Shown: one piece after another, positions 33,201 through 48,016 of the stretch
Numbering within the stretch: the first letter of the stretch is position 1
How the letters are laid out: each line of letters starts with the position of its first letter
Source of the DNA: Victivallis lenta
Lineage (GTDB): Bacteria > Verrucomicrobiota > Lentisphaeria > Victivallales > Victivallaceae
Assembly: GCF_009695545.1 (NCBI RefSeq)
Contig: NZ_VUNS01000012.1
Span: 1-64,000 of the forward strand
Direction of reading: 5' to 3'
DNA: 64,000 nucleotides
Position numbers and translations under genes: made by a program
The notes under the pieces: generated by a model
What the model saw: the letters and a program-made list of their open reading frames with translations, nothing else
Databases searched by the model: none
Told to the model about the DNA's origin: nothing

Positions 33201-33623
33201 AAATCATAAAAATTCAACTTCAGAAGATCACCTTGAATATGTCCACAATATAATCTCGCTATCGGGGTATTACGTTCGACCTTACACGACTCGTGAACGA
33301 GCCGAATGTGAAAATTGGAAAAACAAAGAACATGAAACCGCCCCAGAGGAGCGGACTGGTTGCATGGCGCATAAGCGCCTTCATTGAACCGGGAGGTTTT
33401 CCATACGAGGGAATATCAGAGACTTTTATGTTCGAGATTTGCATTTTTTGTTTTTTCTGCAGAGCCAATACTTTTGAAATTGGCTCAAGAGTCAATTGAA
33501 ACCTGAAACACTGGATAAATTACGGACATTCATTAGGCGATGAACTCAGTAGAAATAATTTGAGTTTCGGTGAAAGGATGAACCGCATTGGATCAAAACA
33601 ACATAACTGAAGCATGGTGGTAT
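33201..33623. other. Gene-free stretch at the presumed left edge of the integrative element
   Basis: About 420 bases with no supported gene. It contains a 7-bp hairpin at about 33463-33485 (AGCCAAT/ATTGGCT) and an AT-rich tail. The far attachment site of the element is expected around here, but no copy of the tRNA-Ala 3' end was found by eye. Confidence 0.45.
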
Positions 33624-34403: not shown

Positions 34404-34715
34404 TTATGCCTTGAATCGCAGATGACACTTGGGACAGTGATACAATCCGATTACATTTTCATCGATCAGTTTGCCAGCCTGAGCGCCGAGCAGACCTCCG
34501 GAGGTGACACCCCAGAGGAGATTCAAGATACCTCCCGCGACAGCTCCGATGGTCGTACCGACAACTCCCAACGCGCTTCCGGCACGGGCACCGCGAACCA
34601 TGCCGACAATCACAACGGCCCCTCCTGCGGTAATCCCGGTTGCGGTTCCAACCGTACTGGCGCGATGAAGCGGGTTCGCAATCGAGGCACATTTCGGACA
34701 AAAGACTTTCGCCAT
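34404..34715 (-). CDS. Small membrane protein with N- and C-terminal zinc-ribbon knuckles
   Basis: The 103-residue protein has CPKC at residues 6-9 and CPKCHLRF near its end, which could together bind one zinc ion, and a central Gly/Ala-rich region (about 23-85) with GxxxG-type zippers that can span or insert in a membrane. AAGGAG sits 8 nt before the ATG. Function unknown; glycine-zipper proteins include pore formers and membrane-stress proteins. It is last in the minus-strand gene group of the element. Confidence 0.7.
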   Translation of the reverse strand: MAKVFCPKCASIANPLHRASTVGTATGITAGGAVVIVGMVRGARAGSALGVVGTTIGAVAGGILNLLWGVTSGGLLGAQAGKLIDENVIGLYHCPKCHLRFKA

Positions 34716-34831: not shown

Positions 34832-35563
34832 CTATCTTTTCCAGAGTTCCGCCGGTTTACCGTCCAGTCCGAACAGTCGGGTCAGGCTGCGGTAGCACTG
34901 GTCGGCACGGGCAGGACTGTACTTCTTGGCTGTTTCGGTGAAGGCGTTCAACAAACTCCACCGGGTCGGCTCGGCGAACTCCTCATGCCGGGGATGTTTG
35001 AACTCCTTCCAGACACTCAGAATATCGCACGACGGAATCGCCTGACGTTCCGCCGCCACCACCAGCGAAGCACGAACTTCATCATCATTGAGTTCATCGA
35101 TCTTCAACTCCTCTGCTACATTTTCCAAAGTCAAAAACTCCAGTTCCAGAGCGTTCACGGCTTCCAGAACCAGACCGTTCAGTTCGATCCGGGAGGTATG
35201 CCGACGCTTCAGAACCGTACTTCCTCCGAAGCACAAATTACTGCACACGTGGACATTGATCCCCGCTGACAGACCAACCGCAATTGTGCGGTCATGACTG
35301 TTGCGGATACCGATGCAGCGGCTCCACTCCATGCTCGAACTTTTGTTGATCCGGATCATGCCGAACATCCGCTGTCCGTCACGGGCCAAACCATACTGTT
35401 CCTCAAGGATCGTCCAGCGATGCGCCTTTACGACATCCGTTACAGCGTCGATCACCTCGCTGTGCGGAACAGGCTTCCAGCTCGCGGTAGCGGTCGGAGT
35501 CGGAACCATTGCGATCTCGTCACGTCCGACGAACTTCCCTTCACACATCGTCAATCCCATCAT
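34832..35563 (-). CDS. DUF932-family phage/plasmid protein
   Basis: The 243-residue protein shows the DUF932 (PF06067) pattern: VPHSEVIDAVTDVV, then IGIRNSHDRTIAVGLSAGINVHVCSNLCF, a hallmark block near 83-111. Such proteins are common on plasmids and phages and are of unknown function. The ATG starts 1 nt after the stop of the nuclease gene; GGAGG precedes it, and the second ATG at 35560 has better spacing. Confidence 0.85.
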   Translation of the reverse strand: MMGLTMCEGKFVGRDEIAMVPTPTATASWKPVPHSEVIDAVTDVVKAHRWTILEEQYGLARDGQRMFGMIRINKSSSMEWSRCIGIRNSHDRTIAVGLSAGINVHVCSNLCFGGSTVLKRRHTSRIELNGLVLEAVNALELEFLTLENVAEELKIDELNDDEVRASLVVAAERQAIPSCDILSVWKEFKHPRHEEFAEPTRWSLLNAFTETAKKYSPARADQCYRSLTRLFGLDGKPAELWKR

Positions 35564-35564
35564 C

Positions 35565-36368
35565 TCACCTCCATTTCTTCAGATGCCACTGTCTGCAACG
35601 ATCCCGATACGGACACTCGCTACAGGCGTAACTTGTTTCATTGGGCAGGAACACGCCTTTGTTGATCGCATCCTGCGCCCGGTTCGCCAATGCCTCGAAA
35701 CGCCGGAAGTCGTGAAAACCGCGACTGGTGTAGTGCGATTCACAACCCGGATTCTTGGTCTTGGTGATCACATCGAACCGGAAGAGCGGAGCCGTGCCGT
35801 TCTGCTTCTCGTAGGCATAGCTGAACACGGTCGCCTGTAAATCACGGTCAGCTTTCCCGGCAGACCAGCGACTCGCCGAGGTTTTCCAGTCCACGATGCA
35901 GACATCCCGTCCATCCTGAACGATGAGGTCGTATTCGCCGATCAGGGGCTTGTCCAGACCGGGAACATCAACCTTGAATGCCTGCGCGACTCCCTTGATC
36001 GTGTAGTAGTCCGTCCAGTTCGCCAACGCCGCATCCAGCATTTTCGTTGCAAGATCGATTATTGTATCGAAGTTCTCACCCTCCTTGTAGATCAGGTTCG
36101 GGGTAGCTTCGGCTTCGATCCTGAACGCCTCCGAGAAACGCTCCACAAGCTCATCCTGCCGCAGAGAGTTTCCCATCATACATTCCCATGCCTGAGCGGT
36201 CAAGGCCGCATGAAACGCTTTGCCGAACGGAAAGCAGACCGAAGTCCGCTCGACCTCGGCCTGTTCCACATAACGGTAGAAGTATTGCGCCTGACAGATG
36301 TTGAGGTACGTATTCAATGCTGAATACGACCAGTGCGGTTCCTTCCGCAGTTCGTCAATGGTCGCCAT
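35565..36368 (-). CDS. Cas4/RecB-like PD-(D/E)XK nuclease with probable iron-sulfur cluster
   Basis: The 267-residue protein has the PDDEXK_1 layout: WSYSALNTYLNICQAQYFYRY near the N-terminus, IGEYDLIV and then VCIVDWKTSASRW (the D...D-K core) near 150-170, and YACSECPYRDRC near the C-terminus. Cys25 plus C-x2-C-x5-C can bind a 4Fe-4S cluster as in Cas4 and AddB. It likely processes DNA ends during replication or recombination of the element. Its ATG overlaps the upstream stop by one base (TGATG). No cas1 or cas2 is nearby, so it is not CRISPR-linked here. Confidence 0.9.
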   Translation of the reverse strand: MATIDELRKEPHWSYSALNTYLNICQAQYFYRYVEQAEVERTSVCFPFGKAFHAALTAQAWECMMGNSLRQDELVERFSEAFRIEAEATPNLIYKEGENFDTIIDLATKMLDAALANWTDYYTIKGVAQAFKVDVPGLDKPLIGEYDLIVQDGRDVCIVDWKTSASRWSAGKADRDLQATVFSYAYEKQNGTAPLFRFDVITKTKNPGCESHYTSRGFHDFRRFEALANRAQDAINKGVFLPNETSYACSECPYRDRCRQWHLKKWR

Positions 36369-36799
36369 CACGCAGCCCTCCATTCGTTGATCTGATTGGA
36401 ACACTGCTGACGGGACAACTGACGCACATCCGGAACCTGGAATCGGGCTGCGATCTGCTGCGGAGTCACGCCACGCTGACGGGCAAGATCAAGCAGATAC
36501 GAGAGTTGTTTCGGGCTCGCCGGACCATCGTTCTGACGGTCTCCTGCCCTCCTGCCTTGAGGAGCGTTTTTCGGCCCGTTTGAAGCCGGATAAGTGCCGT
36601 AATTACGGGGATCGTTTCCGTGCAGTTCCGCTTCAACCGAGTTCCGTACCAGATCGAACGTTTCGTGAATCCGAGCCTGCAACTGATCCTGTGTCAACCC
36701 GTCCGGAAGTTCGACCTCGACCGACGCATGATAGCTCTGGCTCGAATACTCTTCCCCGGCAGGAACCTTCTTGGAATACGACGCATTGAGTTTCAACAT
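36368..36799 (-). CDS. Uncharacterised plasmid/phage-type protein coupled to the nuclease
   Basis: The 143-residue protein has an N-terminal beta-rich part (KLNASYSKKVPAGEEYSSQS), a linker rich in N, G and R, and a C-terminal helical unit SPKQLSYLLDLARQRGVTPQ with LSRQQCSNQINEW. The helical unit resembles a small domain seen at the end of many phage and plasmid DNA-metabolism proteins. AAAGGAG lies before the ATG. Translational coupling to the nuclease suggests they work on the same DNA. Possible single-strand-binding or recombinase helper; this is an inference. Confidence 0.65.
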   Translation of the reverse strand: MLKLNASYSKKVPAGEEYSSQSYHASVEVELPDGLTQDQLQARIHETFDLVRNSVEAELHGNDPRNYGTYPASNGPKNAPQGRRAGDRQNDGPASPKQLSYLLDLARQRGVTPQQIAARFQVPDVRQLSRQQCSNQINEWRAA

Positions 36800-36820: not shown

Positions 36821-37492
36821 TCATTCCCAGTTGTTGATATAGCTGTTATAGTTCTGTACTGCATTCCGGTAATTTTCATCGCTGGATACATCCATACTGG
36901 CATCGGTCAGCAATTCCTTCCCATCATCGCCATAATGGATGTAGTAGGCCAGAGCAATAGCCTCCGCCTCATGTTCAGGCATTTCAATTTCAATCTCTCC
37001 GCGGAGAGCATTGACACGTCCGCAGTTGTGCCCCATATCCTCATCCGCGTAAAGCAGAATGAAATCCACATGTTCCGCCAAAGCTCTCAGCCAGCCTTCA
37101 GGCATACTCCATGCGGTTTGGAACTCTGGCAAGCAGTCCCCTGCCTCTTCCCCGTTGTCCGCATTCCATTTTGTTCCCCAATGGCTGACCCGCCAATCAT
37201 ACCAGTCCGGGAAACCGAACTTCTGGCGATTATAGTGAGCCAAAGCCATTGACACAGAAATGCCCTTATCCAGACATTGCTGCAAGAATGTATCCAAAGT
37301 CGAATTTACAATCTCCGGGAAAACAAATCCCGAAGGCAGCTTGTCATGCTGCGGTGATGAGATATTCAGCGTTTCAGGCATCGGCAGCAGAATATTGAAG
37401 TCGATACGGTTTGTCTTTGGATTGACGGCAACGTTTCTGAACTTGTTCATGTCGCTGATATGCTGAAATTTGCATGTTACCCAATTCGGCAT
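36821..37492 (-). CDS. YubB/DUF1281-type protein with ferredoxin-like fold
   Basis: The 223-residue protein starts MPNWVTCKFQHISD and contains FPDWYDWRVSHWGTKWNA near 109-126, the signature of the DUF1281/Api92-like ferredoxin-fold family found on plasmids and phages. Function unknown. It is 21 bp upstream of the next gene in the same transcript. Confidence 0.8.
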   Translation of the reverse strand: MPNWVTCKFQHISDMNKFRNVAVNPKTNRIDFNILLPMPETLNISSPQHDKLPSGFVFPEIVNSTLDTFLQQCLDKGISVSMALAHYNRQKFGFPDWYDWRVSHWGTKWNADNGEEAGDCLPEFQTAWSMPEGWLRALAEHVDFILLYADEDMGHNCGRVNALRGEIEIEMPEHEAEAIALAYYIHYGDDGKELLTDASMDVSSDENYRNAVQNYNSYINNWE

Positions 37493-37580: not shown

Positions 37581-38930
37581 TCAGATCGCCATTTTGATCC
37601 GTTCGATGGCGCGTTTGGCGAGGATAAAATCCCGTTCCTTCTGTTTCTGTTTGAGCACTGCCTCCTTGACCTTGCGGGTCAGGACGCCTGTTTCATCGAG
37701 CAGCAGCTTGAGCCTGCCGCGCAGTTCGTCGATTCCGTGATTCAGCTCCTCCATCGGATCGACCGCTTCGGAAACAGGTTCCGGGTTACGAACGACCGTC
37801 TGCACAGGGGCGGACACGACTCTCATTTCATTGTTTTCCATCTTGGGTTCCTCCGTTTGAGTTTGAATGGGTTTGGGTTCTTGAGTTTTCGGCTGATATA
37901 ACGGTATCGTGATATAATGTCCCGTGCCTCCGGTTGCAAGGATCGGGAAATGTCCGTCACATGCCTCTATCTTCGTATGCCCCTCCGACAGCAGCCGAAG
38001 AAGCGCGTGCTTGTTGAGTTTGATCGAAACATCGTTCCAGTTGCCGATGAACTCCGCCGCAATGCTGGTGTGCATCTCGCCAGCGAGAATGTTCAAATAC
38101 CCCGGTTTGCTCTGGTACAGCTCCACAGGATTATGCGGAGGCAGATCGGGAACGTTTTTGAGGAAGATTTCAAGCTGCTGCCCTCGCTCCGGCAGAAACG
38201 ATACCGAACGGACCAATGCCTTCTGCGAGGGGATGACCTGTTTCCAGTTCGGATAGTTCCCCTCCAACCCCTCCGCATACCAGACCCAGTGTTCCGTTTC
38301 GATGCGACACATCTTCCCGGTTCTGTCCGTCCACGTGCAGAGCGTACCGGCTTCCGTTGTCTTGGTCTGCATCAGAGCCAACGGAAGCGGTATCGTGAAG
38401 TCATCCACATTCAGCGGAACGTAGATGTTCAGCAGCTCCCTGCCGTTGGTCGTAGTGATTCCCTCCCGGCAGAGATTGATCCCCTGCAAGACCTTGCGAG
38501 GGTTGTTCCGGTCAACAAGCGGAGATGCCGCAGCAAACAGAGCGACAAACTCCTTCGGCAGCTCGCTGATAGAGCAGTGTTCATCCTCATCGGGAACCCG
38601 CCATTCCACACCGGACTTCGGAAACAGAGTTCTTTCCCCGATTCGCAGAATTCCTTCGTTGTCCTCGATCTCCAGCACCTTGTTCCGGTATCCGCGAACC
38701 GCATCCCGGAACTCATCGAATCCCACGATACAGCGAAACTCGACTTCACCTGCACACGCCGTTCGGAACGTCATCTGTTCAGCTGGAGAACGGGTGCTGA
38801 AACAGACCTTGCCATCCTTGCATTCAACCAGCAGGGATTTATGCTCCGGAATCGGAGACATCCGGCTGATCAGTTTTCCGAGCGCGATCAACGCTCTTTC
38901 CAATTCATTTTTGTTCACTTCAATCTTCAT
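37581..38930 (-). CDS. DNA polymerase III beta (sliding clamp) homologue with C-terminal coiled coil
   Basis: The first 360 or so of 449 residues follow the three-domain clamp: MKIEVNKNELERALIALGKL, FVALFAAASPLVDRNNPRKV with TTNGRELLNIYVPL (domain 2), and GNYPNWKQVIPSQ with IKLNKHALLRLL (domain 3). The chromosomal clamp is usually about 365-380 residues; this one carries a charged linker and a coiled coil (about 395-449) beyond it. The usual C-terminal MPM(R/K)L-like clamp end is thus buried or lost. GGAGG precedes the ATG at 38930. It probably tethers the element's DNA enzymes or redirects the host polymerase. Element-borne clamps of this kind are uncommon. Confidence 0.75.
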   Translation of the reverse strand: MKIEVNKNELERALIALGKLISRMSPIPEHKSLLVECKDGKVCFSTRSPAEQMTFRTACAGEVEFRCIVGFDEFRDAVRGYRNKVLEIEDNEGILRIGERTLFPKSGVEWRVPDEDEHCSISELPKEFVALFAAASPLVDRNNPRKVLQGINLCREGITTTNGRELLNIYVPLNVDDFTIPLPLALMQTKTTEAGTLCTWTDRTGKMCRIETEHWVWYAEGLEGNYPNWKQVIPSQKALVRSVSFLPERGQQLEIFLKNVPDLPPHNPVELYQSKPGYLNILAGEMHTSIAAEFIGNWNDVSIKLNKHALLRLLSEGHTKIEACDGHFPILATGGTGHYITIPLYQPKTQEPKPIQTQTEEPKMENNEMRVVSAPVQTVVRNPEPVSEAVDPMEELNHGIDELRGRLKLLLDETGVLTRKVKEAVLKQKQKERDFILAKRAIERIKMAI

Positions 38931-39154
38931 ACACAACCTCCGTGATGTTGAAAATAACAAGCCCCTCCGATCCCGAAAGACCGGAAGGGCCGTTGATAAG
39001 GTTCAGACCGATCTCTTCAGCCTGCTGTCACGTGGTTATATATACGTGAAACTGGAATGAAATACACGATTTCTCTGTCTTCATCATACACGCTTTTCAT
39101 AAGGAAAGTCGGGGGTGGATTTGTAAACGTTGTCTTGAGTGATATATTTTATCA

Positions 39155-39207: not shown

Positions 39208-40287
39208 ATGAAAAATTGTAAGAAACAAACTCAGCCGCCGACAGTAAGAAGTGCGGCAGCGGAATATTTGACGTATATCGCTTCTGTTGGAAATGAACCG
39301 CAGAATATTGAAATTCGATATGAGGATGAAAATATCTGGCTCACACAGCGTATGATGGCTCTCCTTTACGATGTGGAAACGAATACCATCAATTACCACA
39401 TCAAGAAAGTCTTCGAGGACAGCGAACTCCAGGAAGAAGCAACTATTCGAAAATTTCGAATAGTTCAGTCTGAAGGCGGGAGAACCATTGAACGGGACGT
39501 CAAGCACTATAGCCTTCAAATGATTATTGCCGTCGGTTTCAAAGTCAATTCTGAGCGTGCGGTTCAATTCAGAAAATGGGTTAATGGAATTGCCTCGACT
39601 TACACGATCAAAGGTTGGGTCATGGATGACGAACGCCTCAAAAGAGGGACTTTTCTGACTGACAAGTATTTTGATGAACAGTTGGAACGGATTCGTGAAA
39701 TCCGTGCCAGCGAGCGTAAATTCTATCAGAAAATCACCGATCTTTATGCAACTGCCATTGATTACGACCGCACCGCGCTTGCAACGAAACGCTTCTATGC
39801 AACCGTTCAGAATAAAATGCACTTTGCTGTTCACGGTCATACCGCAGCGGAATTGATTGTTTCACGCGCCAATGCCGACAAGACTCATATGGGCTTGACA
39901 ACATGGCAGGATGCTCCGGACGGCAAGATACGGAAGTCGGATGTCGTAATCGCCAAAAACTATCTCACCGAACAGGAACTGGCTCAACTGAACCGGATGG
40001 TAACCGCTTATCTGGATTTCGCTGAAAACATGGCGATCCGTAAGATTCCGCTTACCATGGCCGATTGGGAACAACGTCTGAACGCATTTATTGAGATGTT
40101 TGAATACGGTCTTCTGAAAGATGCCGGAAAGGTTACAGCGGAAATCGCCAAACTTCATGCTGAAACCGAATTCGAAAAATACCGCATCATTCAAGATCGT
40201 CAATTTCTTTCCGACTATGACAAATTCCTTCTGGAACTGGAGGAGCAGACAAGGAAAAACAGCAAGTTTACAGAAGGGAAAGAGTGA
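39208..40287 (+). CDS. rhuM: RhuM-family (virulence-associated) protein
   Basis: The 359-residue protein has the RhuM signature: IEIRYEDENIWLTQRMMALLYDVETNTINYHIKKVFED, then TIRKFRIVQSEGGRTIERDVKHYSLQMIIAVGFKVNSERAVQFRKW (about 65-115), a KilA-N-like antirepressor region, followed by a Fic-neighbouring-type DUF with YATVQNKMHFAVHGHTAAELI. RhuM was named in a Salmonella pathogenicity island and is common on mobile elements and beside restriction genes; its biochemical role is unclear. Monocistronic, divergent from the clamp operon. Confidence 0.88.
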   Translation: MKNCKKQTQPPTVRSAAAEYLTYIASVGNEPQNIEIRYEDENIWLTQRMMALLYDVETNTINYHIKKVFEDSELQEEATIRKFRIVQSEGGRTIERDVKHYSLQMIIAVGFKVNSERAVQFRKWVNGIASTYTIKGWVMDDERLKRGTFLTDKYFDEQLERIREIRASERKFYQKITDLYATAIDYDRTALATKRFYATVQNKMHFAVHGHTAAELIVSRANADKTHMGLTTWQDAPDGKIRKSDVVIAKNYLTEQELAQLNRMVTAYLDFAENMAIRKIPLTMADWEQRLNAFIEMFEYGLLKDAGKVTAEIAKLHAETEFEKYRIIQDRQFLSDYDKFLLELEEQTRKNSKFTEGKE

Positions 40288-40959: not shown

Positions 40960-42567
40960 TTATTCAACCATATCTTCTTCTGTTCCGGGCTCTATGCGCA
41001 CATCGCCATTAGGCTCAAAAAGATATTTTTTGATTTCGCCCGTTTCCATATTCTCCACACGAAATCCTGTTGCAGGGTTATTGCCCTCCACAATATAGGT
41101 GTGATCTGCCACTTCACACAGAGGGCTATTGCCTTCTTTCGAAAACGAGAAAATCGCTATCGGAAGCTCGGTTTGTATTGCCAAGCCAATCCCGCGCTCA
41201 AACTCTTTGTTGAAGTCATCATTGACTGCGTAGAAAAAAACGACATCCGCATTTTTTTCACGCAGCTTCATCTCGAACTCCAAGTCATCCTTCAAAATTT
41301 CTGTATTGACAATCGTGATCGCCGTATTTTTTTCCAGACAACGGAGAAACTTCTGAATATATCCATCTTGACCATTGGGAATTACAACAACAATATTCCG
41401 ATTCTCTTTTGTTTTTTCTGAAAGATATTTTAACAATTCTCTCATGAAAAGATCAGCTCTATTCGACTCAAACAATGCGATAGAACCAGCCGGCCAGAAA
41501 TACGGAAGATTTCCGTTATATTTTTTTTGCTTCAAGGTAACTTCGTAGGGCTTCGGAAACCAGATCGGATCAAGCTTGATCCCCTGTTCCCATGCACGTT
41601 TTTTCAGCTCTGATTCTTCAAGAATGGTGGTCTCATTATCATCCACCCATTCACCCCTGTAAAAATCCATAGGATTCATTTCTCGAACTTTGACTTGGCG
41701 TACTCGCATTTTTATGTTATGCCGCTTTGCTTCGGTAAGAATTGGCAATATTTCAGACAAAGCAGTTCGATTAAAAAGGGGGTCTGATTGATAGTGTGGA
41801 AAAATGATTTCAGAATGCATGTGGCGAAGTATTTCCCAATCCAATTTATCGGCTCCATCCGCAGTACAAAACCACCCCATACCAGGATTGGCTTGTGCGA
41901 TGTAAATTGATGTGGAAAATTGCCATGGATTGGAGGAGAAGTTGCAGTATTTGGAAAACCAAACACCGGATTGGCGTGGTTTGAACAAAAATGGATATTC
42001 GCCAGGAAGGTCATTGTATTTGAAGCATTTTACTTCAAAAACCCCGTTCCCCGCGTGACAGTATAGGGCTTTGAGATTTCCATTTGCATTATAGAGGGGT
42101 AATGGAGTTTCCGCCACAATCCATGTCTGTAGGGTGGATGATTCTGCATGAGAACGGATTAGTTTGCCTGAAATGGTATCCATATCAATTTGATTGAGAC
42201 CGAGCTTCTGTGCTAAAGCAATGTAATCAATATTTCCGAGTATTTCTTGAAGAATGGATTGAAATTCCCAAGAAGTGATGTTGTATAACGATGGAACCGG
42301 AAGCATGGGGGAGGCCGATTGCATTACAGGATAGTTACAACTCAATGTTTTTTTCTGTCTAGAAACCGTTATTCCCGATGTGCTTGTATCCACAAGAATC
42401 GTACCGTCAGAATTGGAAAAACCTTGAAAGAAGGGGATATGTGTCAGATTTCCCAATCTTGAAATCTCAGGTGAATCAGCATGATTGATCGCCCAAATAA
42501 TAACTTTTGAAGTAGCATCCGTCAACTTGATCTGTTCTGCATTTTCTGTCTGTTTGGTAATCCACAT
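40960..42567 (-). CDS. Uncharacterised 535-residue protein of the D5-helicase operon
   Basis: No family recognised. The middle region (about 225-300: ANPGMGWFCTADGADKLDWEI... HYQSDPLFNRTALSEILPIL) looks like a Toprim-type alpha/beta fold, and the C-terminal region (about 370-490) alternates hydrophobic strands and helices (IVVVIPNGQDG, ADVVFFYAV) like a RecA-type ATPase without a Walker A motif. That order, Toprim then RecA-like, is typical of element primase-helicases; here the ATPase would be inactive. This is inference from pattern only. It starts 1 nt after the stop of the 42569 gene. Likely partner of the D5-type helicase. Confidence 0.65.
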   Translation of the reverse strand: MWITKQTENAEQIKLTDATSKVIIWAINHADSPEISRLGNLTHIPFFQGFSNSDGTILVDTSTSGITVSRQKKTLSCNYPVMQSASPMLPVPSLYNITSWEFQSILQEILGNIDYIALAQKLGLNQIDMDTISGKLIRSHAESSTLQTWIVAETPLPLYNANGNLKALYCHAGNGVFEVKCFKYNDLPGEYPFLFKPRQSGVWFSKYCNFSSNPWQFSTSIYIAQANPGMGWFCTADGADKLDWEILRHMHSEIIFPHYQSDPLFNRTALSEILPILTEAKRHNIKMRVRQVKVREMNPMDFYRGEWVDDNETTILEESELKKRAWEQGIKLDPIWFPKPYEVTLKQKKYNGNLPYFWPAGSIALFESNRADLFMRELLKYLSEKTKENRNIVVVIPNGQDGYIQKFLRCLEKNTAITIVNTEILKDDLEFEMKLREKNADVVFFYAVNDDFNKEFERGIGLAIQTELPIAIFSFSKEGNSPLCEVADHTYIVEGNNPATGFRVENMETGEIKKYLFEPNGDVRIEPGTEEDMVE

Positions 42568-43140: not shown

Positions 43141-44517
43141 TCAGTCAAGTAACTCGAAGCCCTTGTAGCCACGAATCTTTTGTCCATGGATGGAATTAGA
43201 GCCGATGGCATCGTATTCCGTCCCCATGGACTTTGCAAAACGCTTGTAAAAAGCAGCTTCTTCAAGGAACTCAAGTCCCAGGTCTCTCTGGTGTCTGATA
43301 TAGGTGGCATAAGCCGACCTTGAAGAGAATTCATTGCCTGCTGAACGTCTGATATAGTTACAGACAAACATGTCCATCGACCGAATCTCATCCACCAGCT
43401 TGTCGCGACGAACCTTCTGCGTTGTGGTCAGCTCAATCCGCCAATTGTTGCTCCGTACATGCCTTGCTCCATCAAGAATCCAGTTTAAAATACCGCTGCC
43501 TTCTTCCGCCAGCAGGCGATCGACAAGAGTTCGATCCTGTTTTTCTTCAGGAATATGGTGATGGAACAAAATCGGCAGCATTCGGTCTTTCCATTCTTGC
43601 CCCTTGCCTTCAAATTTTACCGACATTTTGTGGTTAGTAACTATAATCAACGAGAAGGTCCCATGATGTTTCTTCTTAAGGTTTTCGAATTTCTGGGCCG
43701 TCTGAAAATAGTCTCCGCCAACAGCTTTCTTGACGAATTCGCCTCTAGAAGAACACAAGGCTCCACTGATGGCTTCCGAGGCCGTCAACAGGGTCTGAGT
43801 CGTCAAGTCTGAAAAACCAAAAGGGCTGGAAATAGTTCTGAAATTTAGATCGAATACCCGTTTAGGGTCAAGTATTTTCGATATCAGTAGAACCAGTAAA
43901 CTCTTCCCACACCCTCCTTCGCCTTGGAACAGCAGGAACTTTCTGGTCCGGTTGGCAGGAAAGAGCGAGGCCCCTAGGTAGTCCTGAATAACTCGTCGGT
44001 CATCCGCATCCGGAATAATCTCCCGGATTTTTTCCTCAAACAATGGCGCTTTTGCATTCGGGACATAGGGAACGGTTAGGGAATCAAGAATCATGTCTTC
44101 TTGATTATAATCTCGAAATTTCAACTCTTGGCTTACAGATTCCCAGTAAAGAATCCCGTTCGTAACTGGAATGATATCTGGATCAAGTGGCGGGAATCTC
44201 TCGGCCCCATTCTCAAGTTGAACCATCTGCATAATTTCATGCAGCAAGCCAGGCGTTATCTGTGAAAAACATGATTTAGAGGTTGATCGCATCAGCCGTA
44301 GAATTAGATCGCGAATCGCAATCTTGATGGCGGCCGAAGATGTGCTATGCCATCGACCATTTTTCATTTTTAACCAGCCAACATCATGGAAATATTTTAC
44401 CTGAGTGTCTTGCTGGAAGGCTGCTGCGAAGAAAATAGGATTGACGCGGGGATTTCTCCGTCCCTCCGTGGGGAATGGTTCTCCAAATTTCTCGATGATG
44501 GGTTGATACTCTTGCAT
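43141..44517 (-). CDS. P4/D5-type superfamily 3 replication helicase
   Basis: The 458-residue protein has a D5_N-like front part and an SF3 helicase core: Walker A GEGGCGKS at about 199-206, followed by an AAA-like region ending in LIIVTNHKM (sensor-like Asn, near 300). This is the phage/plasmid primase family C-terminal half (TIGR01613, as in P4 alpha), but the N-terminal primase module is missing, so a partner is needed. It likely unwinds the element's origin. It starts 2 nt after the HTH gene ends. Confidence 0.88.
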   Translation of the reverse strand: MQEYQPIIEKFGEPFPTEGRRNPRVNPIFFAAAFQQDTQVKYFHDVGWLKMKNGRWHSTSSAAIKIAIRDLILRLMRSTSKSCFSQITPGLLHEIMQMVQLENGAERFPPLDPDIIPVTNGILYWESVSQELKFRDYNQEDMILDSLTVPYVPNAKAPLFEEKIREIIPDADDRRVIQDYLGASLFPANRTRKFLLFQGEGGCGKSLLVLLISKILDPKRVFDLNFRTISSPFGFSDLTTQTLLTASEAISGALCSSRGEFVKKAVGGDYFQTAQKFENLKKKHHGTFSLIIVTNHKMSVKFEGKGQEWKDRMLPILFHHHIPEEKQDRTLVDRLLAEEGSGILNWILDGARHVRSNNWRIELTTTQKVRRDKLVDEIRSMDMFVCNYIRRSAGNEFSSRSAYATYIRHQRDLGLEFLEEAAFYKRFAKSMGTEYDAIGSNSIHGQKIRGYKGFELLD

Positions 44518-44519
44518 GA

Positions 44520-44888
44520 TTACTGTTCTCCTTCTGTTTGTTTTTCTTTTGTATCCGAAGCATTTATGTAATCATAAATGTCAGTGTTTCTATAGCGTAC
44601 CGTCTTATTCCCAACCAATTTCCGACTAAATGGAAAAGTCCCCTCCTTCTCAAGCGAGCGCAGCTGCGAATAGCTAATAGAAAGTAGCTCAGCAACCTCT
44701 TGGGGAGTTAGTAGTTTCGGGGCTATCGCAGGAGCTAACTCCCCTGTTTTCGCAAGAGCGTGGAGATTTCTTGAAATAATATTGTATTCTTCCCCCGTAA
44801 TCGTTCCTGAATCAAGCAGTACGCTCGCCAGACGGCACACTAAGCGTGCCGTCTGCGGTCGTAATACTTGATTCTGAAATTCTTTCAT
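44520..44888 (-). CDS. Excisionase-like helix-turn-helix (HTH_17/MerR-type) protein
   Basis: From ATG 44888 the product has 122 residues. Its C-terminal half carries LLTPQEVAELLSISYSQLRSLEKEG and KTVRYRNTDIYDYI, the winged helix of the excisionase family (PF12728). AAAGG precedes the start. It begins the minus-strand operon with the helicase and probably controls both excision and operon expression. Directly between integrase cargo and replication genes, where xis usually lies. Confidence 0.85.
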   Translation of the reverse strand: MKEFQNQVLRPQTARLVCRLASVLLDSGTITGEEYNIISRNLHALAKTGELAPAIAPKLLTPQEVAELLSISYSQLRSLEKEGTFPFSRKLVGNKTVRYRNTDIYDYINASDTKEKQTEGEQ

Positions 44889-45054: not shown

Positions 45055-46536
45055 ATGAAACAAGAAGAATTAAATGAGATTCGCAGTCTGATCTCCAATG
45101 TAGAATATATTTCGTATCAGCATGGGATCTATCCTGCACTTTTTCGTTTGGTCTTACAGTGTATGTGCAGAGCCCCATTTGCGTCATATAGCACAATCAT
45201 TGAATTTATCAAAATGATTAGACTCCTTGCGGAAGCAGATAAAGACTATAACTTGTTATTAAAAGCTAGTATATTGACTGGGCAATTTCCGGATTATCGT
45301 TTATATAAGCATAAAAAACAAAAAAAACTCAAAAAAGCAAAGGATTCAGCTCGCATCCAACAGGAACTTGAAGAATTCAAAAAGAGGTTAAATTGCCCAG
45401 ATGCCAGAGTGGCTTCCAACATGTTGATTATTCCCGTTGATACCCGCTGGGTGAACCGTATGGATACAAATTTTCATTTTGCCAAACGCTATGCAGAAAA
45501 ACGTGCAGATTATCATATTTTTTGGAAGCACTTATCTTCTTGGCAAAAAAAGATTGCAGAAAAATATTCCCCTGAACATTTTGATAACAGTGGAGATTAT
45601 GTATTATATCGCGATCAGGTCAGATGTAAAGTTGTAAACAGGCGTGAAGAAGAAATACAAGAAAGATTAGCCTTAAATCCCAACGACTGGGATATCAGTT
45701 CAAATATTTCAGTTTATTCAGATAGTATCGCAACAATAAGCAGCAAACACTATCATGATTTTAATATAGAATCAACCAAAAATAAGAATCCATACGATAC
45801 AGACAGTGAAGCAGAGGCCATATTTTCATCTGGCTTTGTTATTTATGATCATCCAGAAACAGAAGAGTTCAAATTTATCTCAATATATCAAAACCATCTT
45901 TTTTCAAAAACAGACAAAATTGTTCCAGTAAAAAAAGCCTTAGAGAGCTACTTTATTGCAACTCACAACGGGCGGCAACCGAATAATTTAGAGTTGAGTG
46001 CATTATGTCAGCGATACTACCGTTTTATTAGAAAATCCTATATGTCGGAAGATATGTGTCATGATGAAAACCTAATTGACAATCGCGAAATGAAAACGGT
46101 ATGTCTAGATACCATGTATTTGCTAGGATGTAAGAACGTTTTTTACCTTTACCACGGCAAGAAAAAAGAGGGGAACTCAGCAACCCTTATTTGGAATATC
46201 AAAAAAAATTGCTGTTACCTTATGAAGGGATCAAAATTGGCAAATACAGTTGATGCCATTGAGGATTGGGCCATTTCAAATTTTATTCAAAAGAAGCTCC
46301 GAGAAAAGCGGCTCCGAAAATCTGCCGATGGCTGTTATCGTGTCCTAAAGACAACAGAAGTCCATTCTCCTTCTTTGGCGGCCTGGTTAGTCTGCGGATA
46401 TAAACGTAACGGCTTGAGTTGTTGGAAAAACAGTCAAGGAAAAACGTTGCGGGATTTTTTGAAATCACGCAACGTTGGTTCTGCATCTAAACTTAACTCA
46501 AAATCTGGATTAGTTTCTCTCGATACTCAGGAGTGA
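45055..46536 (+). CDS. DUF4357 C-terminal protein of unknown function, AT-rich; candidate defence cargo
   Basis: The 493-residue protein has a helical N-terminus with a Lys-rich patch (HKKQKKLKKAKDSAR), a long central part with no recognised fold, and a C-terminal DUF4357-like domain from about 400 (YLMKGSKLANTV..., then SPSLAAWLVCGYKRNGLSCW and GKTLRDFL). DUF4357 is usually found at the ends of restriction-type or GIY-YIG nucleases and methylases. The gene is far more AT-rich than its neighbours and lacks an SD, which points to recent transfer. It lies between integrase and excisionase, a common place for element-borne defence genes, and overlaps the integrase tail by 44 bp. Confidence 0.7.
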   Translation: MKQEELNEIRSLISNVEYISYQHGIYPALFRLVLQCMCRAPFASYSTIIEFIKMIRLLAEADKDYNLLLKASILTGQFPDYRLYKHKKQKKLKKAKDSARIQQELEEFKKRLNCPDARVASNMLIIPVDTRWVNRMDTNFHFAKRYAEKRADYHIFWKHLSSWQKKIAEKYSPEHFDNSGDYVLYRDQVRCKVVNRREEEIQERLALNPNDWDISSNISVYSDSIATISSKHYHDFNIESTKNKNPYDTDSEAEAIFSSGFVIYDHPETEEFKFISIYQNHLFSKTDKIVPVKKALESYFIATHNGRQPNNLELSALCQRYYRFIRKSYMSEDMCHDENLIDNREMKTVCLDTMYLLGCKNVFYLYHGKKKEGNSATLIWNIKKNCCYLMKGSKLANTVDAIEDWAISNFIQKKLREKRLRKSADGCYRVLKTTEVHSPSLAAWLVCGYKRNGLSCWKNSQGKTLRDFLKSRNVGSASKLNSKSGLVSLDTQE

Positions 46537-47830
46537 TATCAAAGTTATTTTTTAAAACAGCTAAAGCTTCGTTGATTTTATCTCGGTCGCTTTTGCCGTT
46601 CATGGTTCCGCTGACCGCATCAATCGCCTGCTGTTGGGCAGCATCTCCGACGTGGGTGTAATATTTGTCTGCGATTTCAGAGTCGGTCCCGAGAATGGAA
46701 AGCAGAACCGCCTTGGGAACTCCAGCCTCAGCACAGAAACTCGCGAATGCATGACGGAGAGAATGAAACCCATATACCGTCATCTTTTTACTGCGTCCGG
46801 GAACAGCAACCGACGGTTCCAAGCCGATCCAGCGGATCACACGTAAAACATCGATATTGATAAGATTGACTCCTACGCTCTTTCCGTTTCGATCCACCTT
46901 ATTATACCGTGCAGCGGATTTCGGACAGACATATTGACCCTCTTTCCAGGCCTGCGCTTCCTTGAGTACAGCATGGAGTTCGGCGGCCATCGGAATGGTC
47001 ACCTCTTTACCGGTTTTAAATTGCTTTACCCAGATTCGCCTGCGTTCCATATCGACGTTCTGCCATTGCAGCAGCACACAGTCTTTCAGACGTTGCCCGG
47101 TGAACATGCCGATGTAGTAGATGACACGGATTTCCGGTTTGTTCATGACATGGTACTGGTCGTCAGCAAGAACCTCGCGGAGCTGCTGCTCCTGTTCCTT
47201 GCTGAACGCCTGTCGCCTTACAATGGTGGCCTGTTCCTCTCTGGCATTGCGTAACAATGTTTTAGATCGAAACGGATTTTCTCCGGAGTAATAGTCTTTG
47301 AGACAGTCGAATATCTTCCGCAAACGCTTGATTTTACGATTATGGGTATCAACAGCTTGTGCTTGGGATTTCAGGAAGCTCGCGTATTCCTCTGCGACTT
47401 TGCTGTTCAATTCTGCTACAGAGGTAATGACTGTATGATGCTTTCCTGGAGTTGTAACAAATGCAACAAAATCTTCATACGTTGTCTTGTAAGAGAGTTG
47501 TTCGCTGACGGTATGCGGAGTTGCACGTTCCGGATGAATTTCATATTTGGCCCATCCTTCTGAAAGCGGCAACATTTGAGCTTGTCGGGAAAAACCTTTC
47601 ATGGCGTTGATTTGAGCGGCAGCCACATCCATTGTTGGTGCAGCCCAGATGGAATCCAGCTCTTCTGCACGTTGAAGTGCTTCGAGTTCATCGGTTGTCT
47701 TCAACGCAAATTCTTTTCGTACACCATTGGCTACTGTGAGTCGATAGTAGAAAGAGCCTTTGGCATTTTTTCTTCTAAGTGTTCCGCGAAGTTTCTGCAT
47801 TCGGTTTTTGATCCTGCTTCCTGCGTTCAT
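46493..47830 (-). CDS. int: Tyrosine recombinase (phage-type integrase)
   Basis: From ATG 47830 the product has 445 residues: an N-terminal Arm/SAM-like region, then the catalytic domain with TGQRLKDCVLLQW (Arg I, near 246), HSLRHAFASF (His-x-x-Arg, near 352) and KYYTHVG (catalytic Tyr, near 390). All conserved residues are present. It lies beside the 3' end of tRNA-Ala, as expected for insertion at that tRNA. An upstream in-frame ATG at 47875 is possible but less likely; the chosen start is preceded by CAGG. Confidence 0.92.
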   Translation of the reverse strand: MNAGSRIKNRMQKLRGTLRRKNAKGSFYYRLTVANGVRKEFALKTTDELEALQRAEELDSIWAAPTMDVAAAQINAMKGFSRQAQMLPLSEGWAKYEIHPERATPHTVSEQLSYKTTYEDFVAFVTTPGKHHTVITSVAELNSKVAEEYASFLKSQAQAVDTHNRKIKRLRKIFDCLKDYYSGENPFRSKTLLRNAREEQATIVRRQAFSKEQEQQLREVLADDQYHVMNKPEIRVIYYIGMFTGQRLKDCVLLQWQNVDMERRRIWVKQFKTGKEVTIPMAAELHAVLKEAQAWKEGQYVCPKSAARYNKVDRNGKSVGVNLINIDVLRVIRWIGLEPSVAVPGRSKKMTVYGFHSLRHAFASFCAEAGVPKAVLLSILGTDSEIADKYYTHVGDAAQQQAIDAVSGTMNGKSDRDKINEALAVLKNNFDITPEYREKLIQILS

Positions 47831-47939: not shown

Positions 47940-48016
47940 TGGTGGAGCTGGTGGGAGTCGAACCCATGACCTATACGATGCGAACGTATCGCTCTAGCCA
48001 ACTGAGCTACAGCCCC
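47940..48016 (-). tRNA. tRNA-Ala (CGC anticodon)
   Basis: On the minus strand the 77-nt cloverleaf begins GGGGCTG and ends with CAGCTCC, A and an encoded CCA. The acceptor stem pairs with one G-T; the D arm has TAGCTCAGTTGGCTAGAGC, the anticodon stem ATACG/CGTAT holds the loop TTCGCAT with anticodon CGC, and the T arm has GGTTCGACTCCC. It is the probable attachment site of the integrative element on its 3' side. Confidence 0.95.

Follow-up and report, generated by a model that had tools for sequence, protein, structure and literature searches.

An element-borne sliding clamp of Victivallis lenta with a coiled-coil tail that is probably also made as a separate protein

What role can be played by a sliding clamp that is carried by an integrative element and continues past its ring into a tail? 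Bacterial sliding clamps are known as bare rings, and their partners dock onto them via short peptides. The question is raised by a gene on the minus strand (37581..38930) of the window, i.e., the whole 64,000-nucleotide stretch of Victivallis lenta DNA analysed here. Read from its ATG, with a TTG at 38960 as an alternative start, this gene encodes a full-length tailed clamp of 449 residues (about 50.8 kDa). A first reading, made from the sequence without database searches (hereafter the sequence-only reading), had recognised the layout of DnaN outside a chromosomal dnaN locus, followed by some 90 residues of charged linker and coiled coil. For the tail, it suggested dimerisation of the clamp, recruitment of element enzymes, or blocking of the host clamp. 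Overall, that interpretation is partly supported: the clamp fold, the element setting, and the conserved coiled-coil tail hold, and the three roles of the tail are candidate functions. The internal start, the swapping of rings and tails between copies, and the identity of the constant neighbours had escaped it.

The three-domain layout was confirmed by profile comparison and structure prediction. In a single-sequence search, the N-terminal domain of Pfam DNA_pol3_beta is matched weakly (E 0.16), and the best library match of the ORF is PHROG_947 over residues 1-238 (E 2e-14). A family profile of residues 1-345 aligns end to end with residues 2-359 of the Deinococcus beta clamp (4trt; E 1.8e-25) and matches residues 1-365 of the Enterobacter one (6amq; E 6e-20). 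The AlphaFold model, a single-chain prediction made from an input alignment of 31 sequences (pLDDT 82.5), displays the clamp fold, with three domains up to residue 346 (37893..38930, minus strand). Its residues 1-346 superpose on residues 1-366 of E. coli beta (3pwe_A) with a Z score of 27.7 and an rmsd of 3.5 over 333 aligned residues (Foldseek, VIA-align). Residues 1-346 are thus a true three-domain beta clamp. The residues making up the client-binding pocket of the beta clamp have been described (PMC11139829), and the counterparts of R152, L155, T172, G174, L177, P242, V247, and P363 are retained, in the window as R145, L148, T161, G163, L166, P227, V232, and P343, whereas that of R176 is E or Q instead.

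The element clamp is a sliding clamp by fold, yet it is no DnaN orthologue, as it scores 30.5 bits against the NCBIfam DnaN equivalog (TIGR00663), below the cut-off of 137.65, and its chain runs 103 residues past the ring. The chromosomal dnaN of the host is found on another contig (C3) and encodes a tail-less protein of 364 residues that stops at the ring and shares 27% identity with the element clamp. With the host dnaN on C3 and an integrase-bearing element here, the gene indeed lies outside the chromosomal dnaN locus.

The C-terminal extension of 103 residues, slightly longer than first proposed, comprises the expected linker and coiled coil. The linker (residues 347-391; 37758..37892, minus strand) is disordered and poorly conserved, with AlphaFold pLDDT values below 50 (about 28-34). 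It is followed by a single helix of 57 residues (392-448; 37587..37757, minus strand) made of eight heptads. Over the whole helix, hydrophobic residues keep to the heptad pattern, with a mean of 0.71 at positions a and d versus 0.13 at the other positions (permutation p = 0.0002), and a conserved polar stretch, QKQKER, stands mid-helix. The tail is present in every intact homologue aligned, so that it is a shared feature of essentially all intact homologues and not a peculiarity of this copy, and its mean pairwise identity at 40 loci amounts to 57% versus 39% for the ring. Matches of the tail to PI3K, YscO, and scaffold families, with weak E-values scattered over different members, were rejected because such scatter is typical of any coiled coil. 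With a wider alignment of 28 rows, one collection yielded no usable pattern, and no relative was confirmed in the second.

Within the otherwise variable linker, two residues are exceptions, E360 and M364, which are invariant or more than 90% conserved. M364 corresponds to an in-frame ATG (37839-37841) located 8 bases downstream of the Shine-Dalgarno (SD) sequence GGAGG (37850..37854, minus strand), the whole start signal of the window being ACGGAGGAACCCAAG-ATG. Translation from this codon would give a predicted free tail of 86 residues (37581..37841, minus strand; 9.9 kDa, pI 8.1). Of 55 homologues, 51 have a Met at this column of the alignment. The SD-ATG pair stands a few codons off the aligned site in L063, L073, and L075; in L069 and L070, the stronger SD belongs to the following Met, five codons further, and L072 has no clear internal SD-ATG. 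The signal is also retained by distant members within the class (L150, L153, L154) and, despite diverged tails, by L143, L145, L147, and L149 outside it, and it is weaker in L146. The tail is present and the signal not clear in L144, L148, and L152; L151 is devoid of a tail.

Taking the best Met per linker, the mean energy of the internal SD is -8.5 kcal/mol, versus -7.5 kcal/mol for the gene's own start and -2.6 kcal/mol for 282 other in-frame Mets. Synonymous shuffles were performed with the amino acids and the codon pool of each gene kept fixed. For the aligned Met only, none of 5,000 was as low as the observed -7.8 (shuffle mean -5.2; z -5.2), and for the best Met none of 2,000 reached the observed mean. 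An energy of -8 or lower is displayed at one aligned site by 19 of 31 representative clamps, and anywhere in a matching 70-codon stretch by 7 of 181 comparison ORFs from the same loci. For E360, GAG is used in 23 of 34 cases, compared with 500 of 1,242 for the remaining Glu codons (p = 0.002), and a G immediately precedes this codon in 29 of 34 (p = 0.0002). Besides, in 29 of 35 cases the mRNA around the internal start ranks within the tenth of the gene that has the least structure, partly because the G+C content of the linker is lower.

Could the full-length tailed clamp nevertheless be the sole product, with the tail as a fixed domain recruiting element proteins and the SD-like sequence as a by-product of an E/K-rich linker? 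Chance alone does produce GGAG rather frequently from codons for E and K (shuffle mean 20.8 of 35), and in none of the aligned homologues is the frame between ring and tail interrupted by a stop, from which it follows that the ring-tail fusion itself is kept. However, every shuffle comparison shows that synonymous codons favour the SD, the residues ahead of M364 differ (TEE, KEE, QEK, KET, KEN) while the purine-rich DNA is constant, and M364 is nearly invariant within a disordered linker, which makes this explanation unlikely. The conserved internal SD and ATG are under selection at the DNA level. Given the conservation of the site, the bias of synonymous codons towards the SD, and the unstructured mRNA, the gene probably encodes two proteins, namely the clamp-plus-tail and the 86-residue free tail, and the use of the start at M364 can be predicted with good confidence.

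The tailed clamp is a multi-copy protein. Ten full-length copies are found on different contigs of the host genome beside the ordinary tail-less dnaN. Related genomes, some of them outside the host's class, contain dozens more; the named relatives are Victivallis and Lentisphaeria assemblies, and Victivallis vadensis has a homologue (L118). The search for the same tail in other elements, proposed with the sequence-only reading, was thus successful both within the genome and in its relatives. A tblastn search against 50,697 phage genomes gave no match to the tailed clamp. Candidate tailed clamps of phages were discarded, L004 being a tail-less clamp and L003, L005, and L006 encoding only short clamp-like proteins. 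The latter viral contigs carry proteins of 177-182 residues with the clamp motif YPNWKQV and without tail.

Ring and tail are exchanged independently between copies. Thus, the window and L047, from the same genome, have tails that are 98% identical and rings that are 34% identical, and BLASTN aligns tail DNA (67-88%) to copies in which the ring DNA does not align. Among the copies of this genome, the tails are 60-98% alike. The identity of the DUF932 protein encoded downstream correlates with tail identity (Spearman 0.80) more than with ring identity (0.66), of which the physical closeness of tail and cassette may be a partial cause.

Shortened clamp genes, in which much of the ring is gone and the tail and internal start are kept, were observed in L155 (5656-6165), L157 (135-806), and L112 (6995-7333); they may be deletion remnants, decaying genes, or assembly joins. 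Candidate stand-alone tail genes in L065, L067, L112, L120, and L123 proved to be decayed or truncated remnants, none of them intact. The tail has to be considered as an autonomous small cassette gene fused by chance to a clamp, in which case the free tail would be the active product and the fusion secondary. Its evolution does follow that of the cassette more closely than the evolution of the ring, and the truncated L112, L155, and L157 retain the tail and the internal start, yet these loci may be decaying or result from assembly joins, and no intact locus was found to carry the tail as a gene of its own. Moreover, the frame is open from ring to tail in 55 of 55 aligned homologues, which would be needless for a separate gene, and such an origin appears quite improbable.

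The setting of the gene agrees with an integrative element, an assignment upheld by an integrase, an excisionase-like HTH protein, and the ten dispersed copies. The tyrosine integrase (46493..47830, minus strand; Pfam E 3e-16, phrog_1 E 8e-34), the HTH_17/AlpA excisionase-like protein identified by library matches (44520..44888, minus strand), and a tRNA-Ala (CGC) gene (47940..48016, minus strand), whose place next to the integrase designates it as the probable attachment site, are grouped at 44.5-48.0 kb. No direct repeat of the tRNA-Ala end was found in the window, and the left end of the element is therefore placed by homology only, near 33.6 kb, where DNA homology to copies L055 and L084 starts. 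Close to this edge, a 25-bp near-palindrome, GAGCCAATACTTTTGAAATTGGCTC, is located at 33462-33486. Identical or near-identical matches of 23-28 bp are found in many family genomes, often at a fixed distance from contig ends, as if the near-palindrome marked the end of a dispersed repeat.

The element includes further genes that vary between loci. An Api92/DUF1281-like protein (36821..37492, minus strand) is inserted between the clamp and g143, the next cassette gene, and is absent at most relatives. A RhuM-like protein encoded in the opposite direction within the element (39208-40287, plus strand) matches the PADLOC candidate defence family PDC-S05 (E 2e-149), and a 535-residue protein (40960-42567, minus strand) has no significant library match and a close copy in L054. 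None of these three genes is recurrent at most loci. The C-terminus of a 493-residue protein (45055-46536, plus strand) matches the PADLOC candidate families PDC-S14 and PDC-S57. The neighbour families listed include restriction-modification, HipA, reverse transcriptase, transposases, AAA, and DUF3150; the capsid, portal, and terminase genes expected near the cassette in a tailed-phage prophage were missing from the 25 families most often met in scans of 93 neighbouring ORFs.

The clamp had been described as sitting with a Cas4-like nuclease, a DUF932 protein, and an HTH-controlled SF3 helicase. All of them are present in the window, but the helicase and the HTH protein are not constant neighbours. 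The constant ones are g143, the nuclease, and the DUF932 protein, which recur at most loci examined, the cassette being present in about 40; outside the class, it is found in part and in rearranged order. The protein g143 (36368..36799, minus strand; 143 residues) belongs to no known family, with a strictly conserved N-terminal half (LKLNASYSKKVPA), a C-terminal helical domain, and no clear match in Pfam, NCBIfam, PHROGs, or PDB. The PD-(D/E)XK nuclease (35565..36374, minus strand) is a RecB/Cas4-like member of PDDEXK_1 (Pfam E 6e-25) that also matches phage exonuclease PHROGs, and it can be regarded as a putative RecB/lambda-type exonuclease. The DUF932 gene (34832..35563, minus strand; Pfam E 1e-14) is followed by that of a small protein (34404..34715, minus strand), recurrent at relatives and often last in the cassette.

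The DUF932 model (pLDDT 80.8) gave no significant structural match in the PDB with Foldseek, and PDB profile searches with DUF932 and g143 gave no match either. DUF932 may be a Rad52/RecT-type annealing protein, a possibility on which Foldseek gave no significant hit and for which the top VIA rows, Mediator (8.6), CapZ, and the TnsE C-terminal domain (6.7), lie within noise. In Salinibacter phages such as M8CRM-1, DUF932 relatives adjoin a nuclease, an SSB, and an ERF annealing gene. As DUF932 has no significant structural match, the role in recombination rests on the nuclease and the gene context, and it is somewhat favoured that the cassette serves recombination or repair. In E. coli, a beta clamp is reported to bind the RecBCD nuclease (PMC13254535). 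Candidate clamp-binding motifs in the cassette proteins are scattered matches among which no canonical motif stands out, and the one in the nuclease, QATVFSY, is consistent with the QxxxY motif that RecB-type nucleases carry. A link of the cassette to the clamp through its pocket is therefore not supported.

The element clamp could instead be a replication processivity factor, with the D5/SF3 helicase as an initiator bound by the tail. Phage clamps act in this way (PHROG_947), and the C-terminal part of a D5/P4-type SF3 helicase-primase is encoded upstream of the clamp in the window (43141..44517, minus strand), directly downstream of the excisionase-like gene. However, the helicase is found at few relatives (5 of 41 related loci), no element polymerase was found, and the clamp is constantly accompanied by g143, the nuclease, and DUF932 instead, so that a replicative role of this kind has a low probability.

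An even chance is given to a mechanism in which an element-specific beta clamp and a free tail act together in recombination or repair, a tail bundle tethering the cassette proteins. The same gene would yield the full-length clamp and, from the in-frame internal start, the 86-residue coiled-coil tail, and clamp tails and free tails would associate as a coiled coil. The linker exits the ring just past the equivalents of E. coli M362-P363-M364, part of the client pocket, which puts tail and pocket on the same face. Projecting from this client-binding face, the bundle would tether the cassette proteins to clamp-bound DNA. The free tail would set the number of rings per bundle or cap unpaired tails, and such tuning of coiled-coil tethering is proposed tentatively. 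The clamp would act in recombination, in repair, or in a copying of the element that is linked to recombination; with no polymerase found in the element, polymerase and clamp loader are assumed to be supplied by the host. If so, elements could swap ring alleles and keep a cassette-matched tail, while the free tail adjusts the clustering or activity of clamps.

The tailed clamp, or the free tail, might also act as a decoy that poisons the clamp of the host or those of other elements competing in the same cell. Ten copies in one genome, whose tails are so alike that they could mix, and a ring more variable than the tail, would suit such an inhibitor, but the client pocket is preserved and the genes are retained beside a constant DNA-processing cassette, which renders this role very improbable.

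A literature search returned nothing on what DUF932 does, on tailed clamps carried by elements, or on clamp genes with an internal start; most subscription papers lay outside this search, and the two-product tailed clamp is thus only provisionally new. It might represent, on a still more tentative level than the tuning by the free tail, an undescribed clamp type that recruits clients via a modular coiled-coil tail, both in cis (fused) and in trans (free). A clamp equipped with its own coiled-coil arm, which is probably also made alone, would offer a second means of arranging enzymes on DNA. The integrative elements that carry it form a widespread family, present in multiple copies in gut bacteria similar to Victivallis and in relatives of these, and the tailed clamp therefore offers a handle on how these elements recombine or repair their DNA.

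Several known systems share part of these features. In phage lambda C/Nu3, a protease carries a scaffold part at its C-terminus, and an internal start allows this scaffold to be produced on its own as well; unlike the tailed clamp, this system serves capsid assembly, with no homology to the clamp, and no capsid genes were noticed in the neighbourhood of the clamps. In Cas8b/Cas11b, an internal in-frame start gives a second subunit (PMC11899642). There too, one gene gives two proteins, the short C-terminal product being initiated at an internal ATG that possibly has an SD, but the sequences are unrelated and the short subunit was shown experimentally, whereas the free tail of the clamp is predicted. 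The exonuclease and annealing modules of phages and ICEs resemble the cassette by its RecB/Cas4-like nuclease and by the DUF932 relative in the recombination gene group of M8CRM-1; in the elements described here, no annealing protein was identified and the clamp belongs to the module. The match to the phage processivity factors of PHROG_947 spans just the first two thirds of the ring. With bacterial DnaN, the element clamp shares the three-domain fold over the full ring and the client pocket residues, and it differs from it by the C-terminal extension, the location in an integrative element, and a probable second product.
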